Positions 10,169 to 50,607 of a DNA stretch of 59,792 nt are shown here, piece after piece. The notes beneath the pieces are model-generated. The model worked only from the letters and a program-made list of their open reading frames with translations, had not been told where the DNA came from and did not search any database. The DNA comes from Bacilli bacterium (GTDB lineage: Bacteria; Bacillota_I; Bacilli_A; RF39; UBA660). The position numbers were made by a program, and so were the translations under genes. The stretch spans positions 1 through 59,792 of the forward strand of contig JAFRCD010000002.1 of NCBI GenBank assembly GCA_017404555.1, read 5' to 3'. Each line of letters opens with the position of its first letter. Within the stretch, counting starts at the first letter, position 1.

Positions 10169-10189
10169 AGAGACTATTAACTAGTCTCT
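10169..10189 (-). terminator. Hairpin between rpsU and yqeY (weak terminator or processing site)
   Basis: AGAGACTA-GTTAA-TAGTCTCT spans the rpsU stop. The T-run after it is poor, so it may only attenuate read-through into yqeY. Confidence 0.45.
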
Positions 10190-10381
10190 ATTCATCATTT
10201 TGTTTCTCTTTCTTGAATTTTTAATACCTTGCTTTTTAGCTTCTCTTCTTCTTACTCCGGGTTTATCGTAAGCTTCTCTTTTTCTACACTCAGAAGGGAC
10301 ACCATCTCTAGCTACTTTTTGTTTAAAACGTTTTAAAGCTACATCTAGATTTCCGTTTTTAACTGTAACTTGTGTTGACAC
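10181..10381 (-). CDS. rpsU: 30S ribosomal protein S21
   Basis: This 66-residue, highly basic protein is S21: FKQKVARDGVPSECRKREAY and a lysine/arginine tail ending KMMNRD. It binds the 30S platform near the anti-Shine-Dalgarno region. The start is GTG behind GGGAGGG. A promoter lies just upstream, so rpsU-yqeY can be expressed apart from the peptide operon. Confidence 0.96.
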   Translation of the reverse strand: MSTQVTVKNGNLDVALKRFKQKVARDGVPSECRKREAYDKPGVRRREAKKQGIKNSRKRNKMMNRD

Positions 10382-10460: not shown

Positions 10461-10607
10461 TTAGTCAATTAGGAGTTCTCTAATATTTTGACCAATGAAA
10501 TAAGAAAAGTGTAAAAGCAAAACTGTCATGATAATTCCCATTAATATAAGCATGATTATTGAAATAGTTTTATGTTCTTCATAAAAGTTATTTATTCTAG
10601 TGGACAA
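10461..10607 (-). CDS. 48-residue single-helix membrane peptide, candidate immunity protein
   Basis: A 48-codon ORF starts at TTG (10605-10607) with GGAGAAGG placed 6 bases upstream and overlaps the end of the second peptide gene by 16 bases. The product begins MSTRINNFYEEHKTIS, has one hydrophobic helix (IIMLILMGIIMTVLLLHF), and ends GQNIRELLID. Small membrane proteins directly downstream of two-peptide bacteriocin genes are often the immunity factor, so that role is proposed. The evidence is position, ribosome site and hydrophobicity only; I recognise no family. A restart at the internal ATG codon 19 is possible but lacks a ribosome site. Confidence 0.5.
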   Translation of the reverse strand: MSTRINNFYEEHKTISIIMLILMGIIMTVLLLHFSYFIGQNIRELLID

Positions 10608-10762
10608 GCTTTACCTTCTCCGAATCTTCTAAGAGCAGAACCTAGTCCCTTACCACTATCAATTAATACTTTAATAATATTTGTAAAAGCATTAATCATA
10701 CTAGAGGTAATAGCATTCCCTCCCTTAATCATTTTTAAATCGTTTTCTTCTATTCTTTTCAT
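10592..10762 (-). CDS. Double-glycine leader peptide 2 (bacteriocin-like precursor)
   Basis: A 56-codon gene encodes leader MKRIEENDLKMIKGG and a 41-residue core starting NAITSSMINAFTNI and ending FGEGKACPLE. The leader fits the GG-type pattern cut by C39 peptidases (hydrophobic residues before GG, acidic and lysine-rich start). The core is amphipathic, contains G-K-G-L-G (a GxxxG spacing typical of class IIb two-peptide bacteriocins) and one cysteine near the end. It overlaps peptide 1 by ATGA, so both are made in step. Antimicrobial or signalling activity is inferred. Confidence 0.82.
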   Translation of the reverse strand: MKRIEENDLKMIKGGNAITSSMINAFTNIIKVLIDSGKGLGSALRRFGEGKACPLE

Positions 10763-10899
10763 TCATTACACTTTTTAGGATGAGCTATGCCCTCAATAAT
10801 ACCTGAAATGAATATTATTGTTCCTGCTATAGCAACTCCAACCCAAAAAGAAACACCTCCTTTTACTTTTTTTAATTTTTCTTCATCTAGTTTTTTCAT
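10759..10899 (-). CDS. Double-glycine leader peptide 1 (bacteriocin-like precursor)
   Basis: A 46-codon gene encodes leader MKKLDEEKLKKVKGG and a 31-residue hydrophobic core, VSFWVGVAIAGTIIFISG then IIEGIAHPKKCNE. It has a GxxxG spacing (GIIEG) and a single cysteine four residues or fewer from the end, like its partner. AAGGAG lies upstream, and the start overlaps the stop of the accessory gene by ATGA. Together with peptide 2 it fits a class IIb two-peptide bacteriocin. No modification enzyme is nearby, so an unmodified peptide is most likely. Confidence 0.82.
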   Translation of the reverse strand: MKKLDEEKLKKVKGGVSFWVGVAIAGTIIFISGIIEGIAHPKKCNE

Positions 10900-11303
10900 C
10901 TTTTCTCCTTCCATATTTTCTTTAATAGTTCATAAACGTTCTCTTTCTTTACAAAAAAACTTATATTAACATAATCACTAGTTTTAATTCTTTTTGGTAG
11001 TTTAGTTTTAATAATTATTTCATGATAGTTATGCTTATCTTTTTTTAAGACATTCCTAGTTACTGATATTGGTTCGTATTTTTGTTTATGATCTTTTAGA
11101 TAAAGATATTTACTTTTGTTTAATAAAGCTAATTCATCATCGTTTACAATTAGTTTAAGCATATCTTCGTTATACATTGATCCGATTATTACTTTATAAT
11201 GATCATATTTAATTTTAGTAGCACTAAAAATTAAAATAGTGATAACTATAAAAACCAAAACAACAATGACAAATATAGTTTCATCTTGATACTTTTTCTT
11301 CAT
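10896..11303 (-). CDS. Small membrane accessory protein of the peptide exporter
   Basis: A 135-residue protein with one N-terminal helix (ETIFVIVVLVFIVITILIF) and a basic, strand-rich outer part. Exporters of this class usually work with a HlyD-type fusion protein of about 450 residues (LcnD/MesE type); this one is in the right place and has the same topology but is far shorter and lacks the coiled-coil hairpin. It may be a minimal adaptor or a dedicated chaperone. It overlaps the exporter gene by 23 bases and peptide 1 by 4. I do not recognise a named family. Confidence 0.65.
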   Translation of the reverse strand: MKKKYQDETIFVIVVLVFIVITILIFSATKIKYDHYKVIIGSMYNEDMLKLIVNDDELALLNKSKYLYLKDHKQKYEPISVTRNVLKKDKHNYHEIIIKTKLPKRIKTSDYVNISFFVKKENVYELLKKIWKEKR

Positions 11304-13362
11304 AAAGATGATGATTTTTTAAAAGTAATACACGATTAAAGAAATCATTATTTAGGCGATGGGAGACAACAATAACCGTTTTATCTTTTAAAAATTCAAA
11401 TATTCCTTTCATTATTTGTTCACATTTAACTTTATCAATTCCATTAAAAGTTTCATCAAAGATATAAATATCACTTTTTTTAAGAAGAGTTCGGGCGAGT
11501 ATAATTCGTTGTTTTTCACCAGTACTCATGTTATAGCCGTTTTCTTCAACGATTTGATTGAAACCGGCATTATCTTTTCTTACTATTTCATCAACTTTAG
11601 TTAATTTACATATTTTATTTATTTCTTCAGAATCATAATTCTTGTATAATTTTATATTTTCTAAAAGAGTATCGGTAAAAAGGTATTCATTATTAGATAC
11701 ATAGATAATACTATCTCTAATTGTATTTAAATGGTAATGATTAATATCAATACTATTAATGGTAATTTGACCATAGGGAACATCAATATACCGCATTAAA
11801 CTCTTCACAAAAGTGGATTTACCACTACCTGACGAACCCTTTAGTAAGATCTTATCCCCCTTTTTAATACTTAAATTAATATCTTTTAATAATTCCTGAT
11901 TATTATACGAATAAGAAAAATTTTTAAATTTTATTGTTCCTAGAAGTGAATAGTTTTGATAATAGATACTACCGTCAAATATTTCGTTTTTAATAGTATA
12001 TAGATCTTCTATCCTTTCTTTAGCAAGTTTATATGCTTTATAATCTGTATAAAGACCAACCAAATTATTAAAAGAATATAAAATATTATTAAGTAGACTC
12101 TGAAAGATAATAAATTCTCCTAGAGTTATTTCTTTTTCAATAACTAGTTTGGAACCAATTCCTAAAATAAGAATATTGAAAATACCATAGATAATATTTT
12201 TAACACTTTTTTCTTGTTCTTCTTTTTGATAAATACTATAGGCATCTGTTAAAAATTTCTGATACTTAATTTTAAATTTATCAATAATCAACTTTTCTAG
12301 ATGCATACTTTTAATCGCATTAGGTGACGAAATACTTTCTACTAAATTAGAATTAACTATTGCCAAATCTTTATAATATTTTTTAATACTAGGAGTTATG
12401 TAGTTACGAAAGAAAATAGTTGATATCGATATTAATCCTAAAGAGATAATAGTAATTACAGCTAGTTGATAGTTGATATTAAATAATAGTATTGTGAAGA
12501 CGACAATAAATAGTAAGTCACTGATTAAAAAAGAGATAGCTTTGGCAATAAACTCTTTAACAATACTAAGATCTTTAATTCTAGATAATATTTCACCTGA
12601 AGTCCTATTTTTATAATATAAATATGGAAGCAAAATTATTTGTTTAAATGTACTGTTCATTATTTCTTCATCTAGCATAGTAGAAAACTTTACTAAAATA
12701 TTGTTCTTTAAAAGAGAACAAGTTTCTTTGATAAGGTACATTATAAAAATAAAGGCACTGATAAATAAAATATTATTAGTCAAACTGTAGTTTATTGATT
12801 CTTCTTGAAGATATTTGAAATGGTAAGTTATAATTATGGTCATTATATTGATTAGAAATGTTAAACTAAGTAAAAATGGTAAATACTTTTTGTGTTTAGT
12901 TAAGAATGAAAAAAGGAGTGTCTTAACCTGATTTTCGGAATTTATATGAATAATGTTTTTAGCTGGTGTAAGGAGTATAAATACTCCACTACTCATCAGA
13001 TTGAAGGAAGCAAAAGAAAGAGTTTTCTTTCCTTTAGCTGGATCCATAATTAATAGTTTTTCTTTTTCATAATCAATATCATAAATAACTATGAAATGAT
13101 GATAAGTCTTATTTATGATGGTGTGCGCAATTACTGGAAATGTTTCTTCTTTTAAATCTTTGATACCTCCTTTAGCTCCATAAGCAGAAAAGCCAACCTT
13201 TTCAGCTGTTTCAACTAGTTTATAAGCACTAACACCTGTTTTATCTGTATTAGTCCACTGCCGTAAACGTTCTTTAGAAACATTGCCATGATAATGCTTA
13301 ATAATTGATAACAGACAACAAACACCACAATCTTTAATACCATCTTGGAGTACTATTTCCAC
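11281..13362 (-). CDS. Peptidase C39-containing ABC exporter (PCAT) for double-glycine peptides
   Basis: The 693-residue protein combines three domains. Residues 1-135 are a C39 cysteine protease: QDGIKDCGVCCLL holds the catalytic Cys, HHFIVIYD the His, MDPAKGK the Asp. Residues about 155-440 are six membrane helices of an ABC type I exporter. Residues about 460-690 are the ATPase with Walker A GSSGSGKST, signature MSTGEKQR, Walker B IYIFDETF and a switch His in VSHRL. Such proteins cut GG leaders and export the core peptide using ATP. The start is GTG behind GGAGGTGAT. The operon continues to the two GG peptides, its likely cargo. Confidence 0.93.
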   Translation of the reverse strand: MEIVLQDGIKDCGVCCLLSIIKHYHGNVSKERLRQWTNTDKTGVSAYKLVETAEKVGFSAYGAKGGIKDLKEETFPVIAHTIINKTYHHFIVIYDIDYEKEKLLIMDPAKGKKTLSFASFNLMSSGVFILLTPAKNIIHINSENQVKTLLFSFLTKHKKYLPFLLSLTFLINIMTIIITYHFKYLQEESINYSLTNNILFISAFIFIMYLIKETCSLLKNNILVKFSTMLDEEIMNSTFKQIILLPYLYYKNRTSGEILSRIKDLSIVKEFIAKAISFLISDLLFIVVFTILLFNINYQLAVITIISLGLISISTIFFRNYITPSIKKYYKDLAIVNSNLVESISSPNAIKSMHLEKLIIDKFKIKYQKFLTDAYSIYQKEEQEKSVKNIIYGIFNILILGIGSKLVIEKEITLGEFIIFQSLLNNILYSFNNLVGLYTDYKAYKLAKERIEDLYTIKNEIFDGSIYYQNYSLLGTIKFKNFSYSYNNQELLKDINLSIKKGDKILLKGSSGSGKSTFVKSLMRYIDVPYGQITINSIDINHYHLNTIRDSIIYVSNNEYLFTDTLLENIKLYKNYDSEEINKICKLTKVDEIVRKDNAGFNQIVEENGYNMSTGEKQRIILARTLLKKSDIYIFDETFNGIDKVKCEQIMKGIFEFLKDKTVIVVSHRLNNDFFNRVLLLKNHHLYEEKVSR

Positions 13363-14553: not shown

Positions 14554-14578
14554 ATAAAAAAAGAATTCTAGTAATTCT
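14554..14578 (-). terminator. Terminator after the 159-residue gene
   Basis: AGAATT-ACTAG-AATTCT followed by seven T on the minus strand; it overlaps the coding end. Confidence 0.65.
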
Positions 14579-15047
14579 CATTTATTTTAGCAAAAATTTT
14601 ATCTAAGAATTCTTTTACTTCATTATAGTTTCGTGGGCAATAAGCATACCCTCTAGCAGATATGTCTTTATCATCTTGAATTTTTATGAATAAGTTAAAA
14701 CTAAGTGCATCATAAATATTTTTATTTATTCTATTATAACCATTCCATCTTGATACTTTAAGCTTATTTAAGCCAGTAATTAATTCCTGCATTATGTCAT
14801 CATCAATCACAATTTCTTTTCTGTTAATACTCTTTTTAGGATCCCATTTATCAATACTGGCATAACATTTATCCTCACAAACTATTTCATAAGTAGCACT
14901 TGGTCCCCACCCTGGATGATGACCAAATTCCAGTTTTTTTATTTCTGTTATTTCGATATTTTTTCTACTATCTAAAACAAAGAATAGTAAAATACCTAGT
15001 ATTACTACTATACCAATTATTAACGCAATAAGGTATTTTTTCTTCAT
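14568..15047 (-). CDS. Membrane-anchored protein of unknown function at the murD position
   Basis: About 159 residues: an N-terminal helix (MKKKYLIALIIGIVVILGIL) and an outer domain with paired cysteines (VCEDKCY near residue 57) and one more near the end (AYCPRN). I recognise no family. The ATG at 15047 shares one base with the mraY stop (TAATG), with GGAG ten bases upstream, so translation is coupled to mraY. Coupling to wall precursor genes hints at an envelope role, but nothing shows the activity. Confidence 0.65.
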   Translation of the reverse strand: MKKKYLIALIIGIVVILGILLFFVLDSRKNIEITEIKKLEFGHHPGWGPSATYEIVCEDKCYASIDKWDPKKSINRKEIVIDDDIMQELITGLNKLKVSRWNGYNRINKNIYDALSFNLFIKIQDDKDISARGYAYCPRNYNEVKEFLDKIFAKINENY

Positions 15048-16042
15048 TATAACCATACTCCAAAAATTATTCCTGACATAGCTAGAATAAGGCCAGCAAT
15101 CCAGAATAATTTAACAATATCATTTTCTTTCCAACCTAATTTTTCAAAATGATGGTGTAACGGAGTCATTAAGAATACTTTTTTATGAAAGACCTGAACC
15201 CAGATTGATTGAATAATAACTGATAATGTTTCTATTACAAAGACAAAAGCTACTATTAAAAGAGTTAATTCCCTATGAGTTAGAATCGCTATTGCGGCCA
15301 TAACAGCACCTAAAGCAAGAGAACCTGTATCACCCATAAAGATCTTGGCTGGATGAGTATTAAAGACTAAGAAGCCTACTAAACAGCCTGTCAATAATAA
15401 TGAGAATAATCCTAATTCTTCAAAACCAACAACTAATGATATTAGAGCAAAGGCAACAAAGGCAATAGCTGAAAGTCCGCCAGCTAAACCATCTAGTCCA
15501 TCAGTTATATTAACAGCATTACTAGCACCTACTAAAACAAATAGGATAAACAAGCCATAAAGCCAACCCATTTCCATATCAATATGTAAGGTCCCTACTA
15601 CCCAAGATGTTTCGCCACCAGCTCGCATATAAATATAGAAAAACGCTACTGCGATTAATACTTGCATAAATAATTTCTGATAAGTCGTTAAACCTTCATT
15701 ATTACCTTTACGAATGGATAAAAAATCATCCAGAAAACCAATTAAGGCATAACCAATAAATACTAATAAAACAATTCCTAAATTAGATGAATAATCTAAT
15801 TTTCCTACTAATAATAATCCTAAAGTAATAAAAATAGTAGGAAGAATAAAGATAAGTCCTCCCATTGTCGGTGTTCCTTCTTTTTTACGATGAGATTCAC
15901 CAACAAAAACACTTATTTTTTGACCTACCCGCATTTTCTTTAAAAGGGGTACCGCTATTAAACCTAAAATACATGATGATAAGAATCCTACCATCATTAC
16001 TACAATTGCTTTTGTCAATAATAACATTGTTATCACATCCAT
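15047..16042 (-). CDS. mraY: Phospho-N-acetylmuramoyl-pentapeptide-transferase MraY
   Basis: MraY moves phospho-MurNAc-pentapeptide from UDP to undecaprenyl phosphate, making lipid I. The 331-residue, ten-helix protein shows GTPTMGGLIF, the catalytic DD in GFLDDFLSI, NITDGLDGLAGG, FMGDTGSLALG and MTPLHHHFE. A start at the internal ATG 16027 (MLLLTKAI) would align better with other MraY proteins. It lies between spoVD and the murD-position gene. Confidence 0.96.
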   Translation of the reverse strand: MDVITMLLLTKAIVVMMVGFLSSCILGLIAVPLLKKMRVGQKISVFVGESHRKKEGTPTMGGLIFILPTIFITLGLLLVGKLDYSSNLGIVLLVFIGYALIGFLDDFLSIRKGNNEGLTTYQKLFMQVLIAVAFFYIYMRAGGETSWVVGTLHIDMEMGWLYGLFILFVLVGASNAVNITDGLDGLAGGLSAIAFVAFALISLVVGFEELGLFSLLLTGCLVGFLVFNTHPAKIFMGDTGSLALGAVMAAIAILTHRELTLLIVAFVFVIETLSVIIQSIWVQVFHKKVFLMTPLHHHFEKLGWKENDIVKLFWIAGLILAMSGIIFGVWL

Positions 16043-48287: not shown

Positions 48288-49112
48288 TTATTCATTATCT
48301 TGATATTTTTCTATAAAACTTACTTCCTTACCATTAGTTTTATATCCTAATAAAGTATCAATATTAGTATTAATTGTTGAAGCAAAAATATTAGAAGGAA
48401 TCAATGGATTATCTTTTTCCATCTTGGCAATTAATTTCTTGATCTCTAAACGCTTAGAATCTTTAAGAGTACTTTTAGAAGTAACAGTACAAGCACAATT
48501 AATAAATTCTAAATCATTACTTTTACTAAACTTAATAATATCTCTTTCTCTAACTAAGTAAAGAGGTCTAATTAATTCCATTCCTTTAAAGTTCGTACTT
48601 CTTAATTTAGGTGGCATACTTTTAAATTCTCCACCATATAAAATACTCATTAGGACGGTCTCAATAACATCATCAAAATGATGGCCCAAAGCAATTTTAT
48701 TACAACCCAATTCTTGGGCTTTTTTATATAAGACCCCTCTACGCATTCGGGCACATAAATAACAAGGAGCTTCCTTTGATACTTTTTCAGTTACCTTAAA
48801 AATATCTGAATCAAAAAGATGGATATCTAAATTCAATAATTTGGCATTCTTCTTTATAAGTTTAACTACTTCTTTAGTATAACCAGGATTCATCACTAGA
48901 TATACCAAATCAAACTTCTTATCACCATGTTTTTGAAGTTCTTCCATTAACTTAGCAAGAATAAAAGAATCTTTTCCTCCTGAAATACAGACCGCTATTT
49001 TATCGTTTTCTTCTACCAGTTCATATTCTTTAACTGCTTTAGAAAACTTACGCCAAATATCTTTACGGTATTTAGTAATCAAGTTCCTTTCTATTTCTTC
49101 GTGTTTTAACAT
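48288..49112 (-). CDS. TtcA-like PP-loop tRNA thiolation protein
   Basis: 274 residues. The ATP-pyrophosphatase motif CISGGKDSF (near residue 44), CYLCARMRRG and later CACT pair of cysteines, and GHHFDDVIETVLMSILYGG match the TtcA/TtuA group, which makes 2-thiocytidine or a related base in tRNA using an Fe-S cluster held by Cys. It overlaps the thioredoxin-like gene by 7 bases. The tRNA position modified in this organism is not known. Confidence 0.85.
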   Translation of the reverse strand: MLKHEEIERNLITKYRKDIWRKFSKAVKEYELVEENDKIAVCISGGKDSFILAKLMEELQKHGDKKFDLVYLVMNPGYTKEVVKLIKKNAKLLNLDIHLFDSDIFKVTEKVSKEAPCYLCARMRRGVLYKKAQELGCNKIALGHHFDDVIETVLMSILYGGEFKSMPPKLRSTNFKGMELIRPLYLVRERDIIKFSKSNDLEFINCACTVTSKSTLKDSKRLEIKKLIAKMEKDNPLIPSNIFASTINTNIDTLLGYKTNGKEVSFIEKYQDNE

Positions 49113-49792
49113 TTATTAACTCCCGTACAGACTTTTTCCTCAATCTTAGAAATATTTTCTTGGAATATTTTTTTAATCTTCTTTTTTTGTTTCGCAGTAA
49201 GTTTTTTATAAGGATCTTTATGTTCATCTAAAGTACCAATATGTACACCTTTAATTTCTCCATCAGAAACAAAGACTACTGTTGGGAAATAAAGCCTTTT
49301 AATACTAGGATCATTTAACCCTTCATACTCTCCTAAAAAGTCTCCTAAAAGCTCAACAATCTTTTTATATTCAGCTGTACTTTCTTTATCAACAACAATA
49401 TTACCATCTTCATCTAAATGTTTTTGATCTCTGATTGCAAGGGCATTATAATAGTAAAAATTAGGATAATCATTCTCCTCTATGCTTTCTAAAAGAATTG
49501 GTACTAAATTACGACACCAAGGACACTCTGGAAAACCAAAGAAGATAACAGCAGTATCTTTTTGTAAAGCAGAAATAATCTCTTTAGCACTTTTATACTG
49601 TACATTATTCTTTTTAGGTATATTAAGAGTTAAATACTCTTTTCCGTCTTTAGTTTTCTTATGATTAAACTTTTCATATTCTTTTTTAAATTCTTTTTCA
49701 TCATGAGAATAATTATTAGTACTTAATACAATAGCTGTGATAGCTCCAATTAAAATTATTATTCCTCCAATTATTAAACCAACTTTTTTCAT
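49106..49792 (-). CDS. Membrane-anchored thioredoxin-like protein (CPWC)
   Basis: About 228 residues: an N-terminal helix (LIIGGIIILIGAITAIVL) and an outer thioredoxin-like domain with CPWC in IFFGFPECPWCRNLVP, and a cis-Pro-like segment YFPTVVF. Two more Cys are at the very end (KVCTGVNKC). It probably acts in thiol-disulfide exchange outside the cell. The ATG at 49792 overlaps the HAD gene as ATGA, and it precedes ttcA. Confidence 0.82.
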   Translation of the reverse strand: MKKVGLIIGGIIILIGAITAIVLSTNNYSHDEKEFKKEYEKFNHKKTKDGKEYLTLNIPKKNNVQYKSAKEIISALQKDTAVIFFGFPECPWCRNLVPILLESIEENDYPNFYYYNALAIRDQKHLDEDGNIVVDKESTAEYKKIVELLGDFLGEYEGLNDPSIKRLYFPTVVFVSDGEIKGVHIGTLDEHKDPYKKLTAKQKKKIKKIFQENISKIEEKVCTGVNKC

Positions 49793-50607
49793 TTCTTCTC
49801 CTTTAAACATTTCTCTTCTAAGAACTTTTCTACCCCTTTATTATCATTAGAACTAGTGGTATAATCAGCCTTTTTCTTTATTTCAGTACAGGCATTTTGA
49901 ACAGCCACTCCATAGTAATTACTTTTCATAAGACCAAGGTCATTGTAACTATCACCAATAACAGCAATATCATTATTATTAATATTCAATAATTCCTGAA
50001 CTTTTTTAACACCAAGTAACTTATTAGCTTTTAATGATGTAACTTCAACAACAAAGTCTTTTTTAGTATGAATTTGGACTACTCCTTCAATACCTAAATC
50101 TAGTTTCTTTATTTCCTTACAGGCTTTAACAGCATCTTCTTTAGTAGAGAAATGAACTTCCATTTTATAAATATTATTTTTGTTGTCATTAATAAACTTC
50201 TCAGGATTAGTAATTATCTTTTGTAAATCATAAAGCCCTTTTTCTACTTTGATAATACCTGCATATATATTCCAAGCATCAGGAGTACAATAACAGAGGA
50301 TTCTATCATTAGCATATAACTTATTCAAAGCCCTAATAGCTTTTAAAGTAAGTCTTTGTTTAGCAAGAACTTTTTCTTTGTTAACATCATAAATATAGGC
50401 ACCATTTAAGGAAACAATATAATCAATAAAGTGGTAATCTTTAGTATATTCTAAAACTGATTTTAAGACTCTACCGGTAGCCACAGCGAAAAGGCCACCA
50501 TTACGGCGATATTGATCAATAGCCGCTACTGTAGTTACAGGGATACCATCATCACTATCAATTAATGTTCCATCAAAATCAGATACTACTAATTTAAACA
50601 TCTCCAT
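49789..50607 (-). CDS. HAD-superfamily Cof-type phosphatase
   Basis: About 272 residues with HAD motif I VVSDFDGTLIDSDD, motif II AVATGR, the Lys motif (KANKLLGVKKVQELL) and motif IV VIGDSYNDLGLM, plus a C2B cap. Cof-type enzymes dephosphorylate sugar phosphates or flavin-type substrates. The exact substrate cannot be told. Start 50607 (MEMFK) with AAGG 7 bases upstream. First gene of a HAD-thioredoxin-ttcA operon. Confidence 0.9.
   Translation of the reverse strand: MEMFKLVVSDFDGTLIDSDDGIPVTTVAAIDQYRRNGGLFAVATGRVLKSVLEYTKDYHFIDYIVSLNGAYIYDVNKEKVLAKQRLTLKAIRALNKLYANDRILCYCTPDAWNIYAGIIKVEKGLYDLQKIITNPEKFINDNKNNIYKMEVHFSTKEDAVKACKEIKKLDLGIEGVVQIHTKKDFVVEVTSLKANKLLGVKKVQELLNINNNDIAVIGDSYNDLGLMKSNYYGVAVQNACTEIKKKADYTTSSNDNKGVEKFLEEKCLKEKK

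Follow-up and report, generated by a model that had tools for sequence, protein, structure and literature searches.

An operon on the minus strand of the window (the whole 59,792-nucleotide stretch of DNA analysed here) is best explained, with somewhat better than even confidence, as a vertically inherited, family-wide two-peptide secretion system of the class IIb kind, in which the paired peptides would permeabilise competitors and a third small product, ORF3, would protect the producer. All five head-to-tail overlapping ORFs of the original prediction were found, at 10461-13362. First in order is a C39-peptidase ABC exporter (11281..13362; 693 aa), which unites a peptidase, a membrane and an ATPase domain in a single chain and begins at a GTG closely preceded by a GGAGGTG ribosome site. 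It overlaps by 23 nt the gene of a 135-aa accessory, the predicted miniature adaptor (10896..11303). The two peptide precursors follow, PepA (10759..10914; 51 aa, or 46 aa from an inner ATG; core 10762-10854) and PepB (10592..10762; 56 aa; core 10595-10717), their genes joined by an ATGA overlap and each beginning with a leader of textbook GG type (MKKLDEEKLKKVKGG in PepA and MKRIEENDLKMIKGG in PepB). The TTG-started membrane peptide that had been proposed as the last member, here ORF3 (10461..10607; 48 aa), is leaderless and overlaps the end of PepB by 16 nt; rpsU (10181..10381, on the same strand; Pfam Ribosomal_S21) is the usual downstream neighbour and lies outside the system. Chance ORFs are ruled out by the recurrence of PepB in 223 of 243 genomes of the family, by pN/pS ratios mostly far below 1 and by conserved motifs in PepA, PepB and ORF3. 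No excess of promoter-like sites was detected, and no description of this operon was found in the literature.

The exporter passes the Pfam cut-offs for all three of its domains (Peptidase_C39, ABC_membrane and ABC_tran), in keeping with its original assignment, and its full length aligns with PCAT1 (E 1e-86) and ComA (E 2e-76) of the PDB; the substrates of these two homologues differ from its own. Its best NCBIfam match, again over the whole length, is TIGR01193 (peptide cleavage/export ABC transporter), at 357.4 bits and thus below the cut-off of 523.85, and it also falls below the cut-off for NF045998, the Mbov_0121 exporter (320.8 bits against 500). No C39 domain other than that of this exporter was detected in the 944-kb genome. 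The leaders, the C39 exporter and the occurrence of GxxxG in both cores together support the predicted class IIb-like operon of two GG-leader peptides served by a processing exporter of its own, which would cleave the leaders and secrete both cores.

The partner of ComA is ComB, a full-length adaptor, and full-length adaptors also serve class IIb systems. The accessory of the window is far smaller, and is predicted from its modelled structure to be a miniature HlyD-like adaptor consisting of one TM helix and a beta-barrel domain of the membrane fusion protein (MFP) type, consistent with the earlier proposal that a very small protein replaces the full HlyD-type adaptor. Its AlphaFold2 model, built with 64 relatives (pLDDT 94), comprises one TM helix, a beta-barrel and a short C-terminal helix. 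In VIA-align comparisons MFPs stood near the top for this model, tied with unrelated folds at Z about 7.4, and Foldseek returned no match at E <=0.001. A model of a longer relative (152 aa; pLDDT 90) resolved the tie for the MFPs: its best match was BesA (Z 9.4, rmsd 3.1 over 86 residues), with Spr0693 (Z 8.9, rmsd 2.9 over 86), ZneB (Z 8.3), MacA (8.2) and CusB (8.0) also scoring highly. Each of ranks 1-18 was taken by an MFP or a putative efflux adaptor, and unrelated chains began below these, at Z 7.2. The MFP targets were aligned to this relative over residues lying far apart (59-323 of Spr0693, for example), the pattern that excision of the lipoyl domain and hairpin from an MFP barrel would be expected to leave. 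The absence of the lipoyl domain and alpha-helical hairpin from both confident models argues that the accessory would work like an MFP, without being a full member of that class. By sequence, a profile of the accessory gave nothing convincing against the PDB, and the matches listed for members of the accessory family included none of the HlyD families of Pfam. It scores below the cut-off for NF045999, the MAG1140 family (26.9 bits against 35), which is also matched weakly (E up to 0.1) by 27 of the 64 relatives, suggesting a distant relationship to MAG1140 proteins; a literature search on MAG1140 yielded unrelated matches only. About 14 of 89 operons carry no accessory between exporter and PepA, and the protein is thus dispensable.

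Motifs in the peptides were counted in 89 distinct operons, PepA being counted in 86. With related genomes entered as separate cases, GxxxG is present in 89/89 PepBs and 85/86 PepAs, extending to relatives the spacing noted in both cores of the window, and a C-terminal Cys is present in every PepB (89/89; the sole Cys in 85) and every PepA (86/86; the sole Cys in 79). PepB has in addition an RR pair, its first Arg conserved in 84/89 and its second in 88/89. The window peptides conform to this pattern: PepB has GxxxG, RR and, close to its C-terminus, a single Cys (codon 10604-10606), and PepA has GxxxG and a single Cys near its C-terminus. The Cys codon of PepB doubles as the start of the overlapping ORF3, and retention of this Cys in the 36 operons that have no adjacent ORF3 argues for a constraint on the peptide itself. 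The gene order of the operon is maintained in nearly all of the 89 loci. Among library profiles, which for PF10439 and TIGR03949 cover only part of class IIb, PepA approaches the cut-offs of Bacteriocin_IIc (PF10439; 24.5 bits against 27.1) and TIGR03949 (18.0 against 21.5) without reaching them, and PepB has no Pfam match; weak Bacteriocin_IIc matches were obtained for nine of nine PepAs in one alignment of relatives (A4).

That PepA and PepB function as a pair is very probable; that they are membrane-active or antagonistic we hold with lesser confidence, a little above even. On the class IIb reading the GxxxG faces of the two would mediate pairing in a membrane, a disulfide joining their single cysteines would probably lock the pair, and the pair would permeabilise the membranes of close competitors. 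As a lone C-terminal Cys in each peptide precludes an intramolecular bridge, the simple assumption is that PepA is bridged to PepB, to which we give even chances; homodimers (A-A or B-B) or a bridge to some other thiol partner are possible alternatives. The genome encodes exported thioredoxin-like proteins with a CxxC motif, one of them in the window at 49106-49810, which could, speculatively, assist peptide oxidation; the window protein and another in L156 (about 1376-1935) have CxxC in the forms CPWC and CEYC and are weakly similar to the PedC family of bacteriocin accessory proteins. Another locus (L151:4878-5451) has four GG-leader peptides after the accessory in the order A-B-A-B, a tandem copy of the pair in which the second members are degenerate. 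Conservation of the cores in unrelated contexts, apart from the exporter, had been named as an observation that would speak against the original prediction; it was found in a minor sense, in that two loci (L108 and L112) contain PepB, and L108 also PepA, with no adjoining exporter, so that separation of the peptides from it can occur.

ORF3 recurs in 53 of the 89 operons (~60%) as a short, hydrophobic, leaderless ORF beginning at or just before the PepB stop codon. The motif [GSA]xxxGxx[hydrophobic]R is found in 44 of these 53 ORF3s, whereas 500 shuffles gave 0.31 on average and never more than 4; the copy in the window is a weakened form (SYFIGQNIR). A profile of ORF3 lacking the first residues aligned with the PepB core at an HH score of 29.2 (probability 87%), compared with 4.9 for the PepA core, a maximum of 11.7 for column-shuffled controls and 12.4 for the reversed profile. 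The motif and this match together suggest that ORF3 represents the PepB interaction segment placed on a membrane anchor. Among relatives, the small samples and partly saturated synonymous sites yield pN/pS values of 0.28-0.83 for ORF3 (0.28-0.45 in most pairs), below 1, indicating that it behaves as a gene.

A precedent for such an arrangement is gallocin A of Streptococcus gallolyticus, in which the third gene (GIP) encodes an immunity peptide whose modelled fold is like that of both bacteriocin peptides, GllA1 and GllA2, and which is thought to block their pairing (PMC10100652). By extension, the same job may be proposed for ORF3, which would stay in the producer membrane and replace PepB on PepA, thereby conferring self-protection. 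Gallocin A and the window operon both have a pair of GG-leader peptides, a C39 ABC exporter and, after the pair, a small peptide resembling them, an immunity peptide in gallocin A and a candidate one in the window; in gallocin A, too, cysteines matter, and a thioredoxin-like surface protein helps. Its peptides, however, have two Cys each, forming intramolecular bridges within hairpin folds, whereas those of the window have one conserved C-terminal Cys each; the mimicry of the window type can be read from the sequence and concerns PepB specifically; and gallocin A is BlpHR-regulated and strain-level, whereas no regulator was seen with the window operon, which is core to its family. Lactococcin G and plantaricin EF/JK, of class IIb, also have adjacent GG-leader peptides with GxxxG and a dedicated exporter, but are Cys-free (PMC10100652) and, unlike the operon with ORF3, have larger immunity proteins, the 4-TM LagC or members of the Abi family (PMC6957408, PMC8538875).

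Protection by ORF3 through mimicry of PepB is, on this comparative analysis, an evenly balanced proposition. The PepB motif, the shared transcript and the purifying selection on ORF3 would also suit a further member of the complex, either a membrane-retained third subunit or an intracellular chaperone of PepB, with no part in immunity. We regard this as rather unlikely, given that ORF3 is missing from 36 of the 89 operons and has no export leader, and that its position and resemblance to a peptide parallel those of GIP, which is sufficient for immunity in gallocin A. As an immunity gene with a TM segment, of the sort found in class IIb operons, ORF3 is a putative candidate in the 53 operons that have it; no common alternative candidate was found downstream in the other 36.

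An initial search with the 135-aa protein revealed the same operon in several other genera, and a profile built from nine PepBs then located PepB in 223/243 genomes and 142/148 genera of the window's family, usually as one copy; a few of the PepB-negative genomes of the family retain the exporter domain. Of 296 genomes sampled from the class and 295 from the phylum, those of the family alone gave full-length PepB matches. Searching with the window PepB for related loci brought up a single distant match, in a Bacilli MAG sampled from the omasum of roe deer, which together with the small genome and low GC points to a probable RF39/UBA660 affiliation. A tblastn query with the consensus-like PepB of L083 detected no copy on plasmids or phages. 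In 51 long loci, rpsU lies near the operon in 30 and yqeY in 26, while eleven extend to yqfD, ybeY and dgk and nine to era. Identities of the exporter track those of YqeY (Mantel r 0.65, p 0.001; 0.59 for PepA and 0.46 for PepB), which fits vertical descent. Judged by these sequence comparisons, the locus is ancestral and vertically inherited.

The original prediction had instead placed the operon as an insertion between spoVE and rpsU. The window does have an FtsW/SpoVE-like gene upstream and rpsU downstream, as a bacteriocin cassette recently acquired at that site would show, and the suggestion that relatives might have the operon near rpsU was borne out by the 30 of 51 loci; an ftsW/spoVE neighbour, however, recurs in 2 of the 51. 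Together with the presence of the system in 142 genera, the lack of plasmid or phage copies in the tblastn search, and the occurrence of a mycoplasma-type exporter and adaptor beside ybeY-cdd-era, this makes recent acquisition very improbable. Between ftsW/spoVE and mraY, the window also encodes a membrane-anchored protein of 162 aa (14568-15056) with no Pfam match and no notable NCBIfam match.

Selection on the peptides is strong. In the closest pairs, pN/pS, subject to the same limits of small samples and partial saturation of synonymous sites, is 0.04-0.2 for PepA and 0.05-0.2 for PepB, lower than for the accessory (0.27-0.5) and usually lower than for the exporter (0.21-0.35); distant pairs are higher, the full ranges being 0.04-0.73 (PepA) and 0.05-0.46 (PepB). 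Two-peptide systems of class IIb are usually patchy in distribution, and the fixation of one across a family of uncultured, small-genome gut-type bacteria is therefore unexpected. Core status and purifying selection fit an ordinary accessory bacteriocin poorly, and since both are unlike a bacteriocin arms race, we retain as a serious rival a core signalling or housekeeping pair, in which the exported peptides serve the producer, as a quorum-type signal or in an envelope or membrane function, and ORF3 is a membrane partner or regulator. This explanation, to which we assign appreciable but clearly less than even probability, accommodates the near-universal, vertical presence, the constraint on the peptides in close pairs, the retention of exporter and adaptor at a related locus in mycoplasma-type genomes, and the 36 operons in which no common immunity gene was found. 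It is weakened by the neighbourhoods listed, where no recurring kinase, regulator, sensor or receptor was seen; moreover, GxxxG in both peptides and their design as a pair typify the two-peptide bacteriocins that form pores, and a mimic of PepB is most easily explained as protection.

The class IIb reading, for its part, draws on the family-wide pair, conservation of motifs and gene order, the tandem copy in L151, the mimicry in ORF3, homology to PCAT1 and ComA, the predicted MFP-barrel fold, the Bacteriocin_IIc matches of PepA and the gallocin A precedent. Against it stand the near-universal, mostly single-copy and vertical presence under strong purifying selection, unusual for bacteriocins, as well as the operons without an adjacent ORF3 or other common immunity candidate and the weakened motif of the window ORF3. 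The operon offers several testable ideas: a disulfide heterodimer made from one invariant Cys each, self-protection by a leaderless copy of the partner interface, and a minimal adaptor that can be lost.

A further perspective comes from mycoplasma-type relatives. In five genomes (L143-L147), of a family reading through TGA, the genes immediately ahead of ybeY-cdd-era encode a C39 ABC exporter and its MAG1140-type partner; ybeY-cdd-era is part of the wider neighbourhood of the window operon, and no PepA or PepB lies beside this exporter pair. The Mycoplasma Mbov_0121 exporter (NF045998) and MAG1140 (NF045999) likewise resemble the window in two-gene order, small accessory and chromosomal neighbourhood, but the window proteins score below both curated cut-offs and the mycoplasma pair has no adjoining PepA or PepB. 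On the basis of synteny rather than a tree, the exporter and adaptor pair probably predates the split from the mycoplasma-type lineage.

No apparent GG-leader substrate has been reported for mycoplasma C39 proteins, including that of gene 0401 in JCVI-syn3A (PMC6609329). On this point a set of mycoplasma-type GG-leader proteins bears, as candidate substrates of the C39 exporters: a profile of these proteins detects them in 28/34 mycoplasma-type genomes, and a C39 domain is present in 33/34. More tentative, and in our view doubtful, is the broader proposition that the window operon represents a single branch of a core system for peptide export, ancestral to the gut family and the mycoplasma lineage alike. 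In that case the exporter and mini-adaptor would have resided in the era/ybeY neighbourhood of the common ancestor, the peptides would act for the producer and not in warfare, and the mycoplasma GG-leader proteins would be substrates of C39 exporters that otherwise look orphaned, among them the kind retained by the minimal cell JCVI-syn3A. The proteins concerned are about 80-130 aa long, often lie between rsmI and rplU, and were seen in L070, L071, L072, L163, L164, L165, L167, L168 and L170; they have a PepB-like start (SGALLNGI..II), the likeness to PepB being seen over the leader and the first part of the core.
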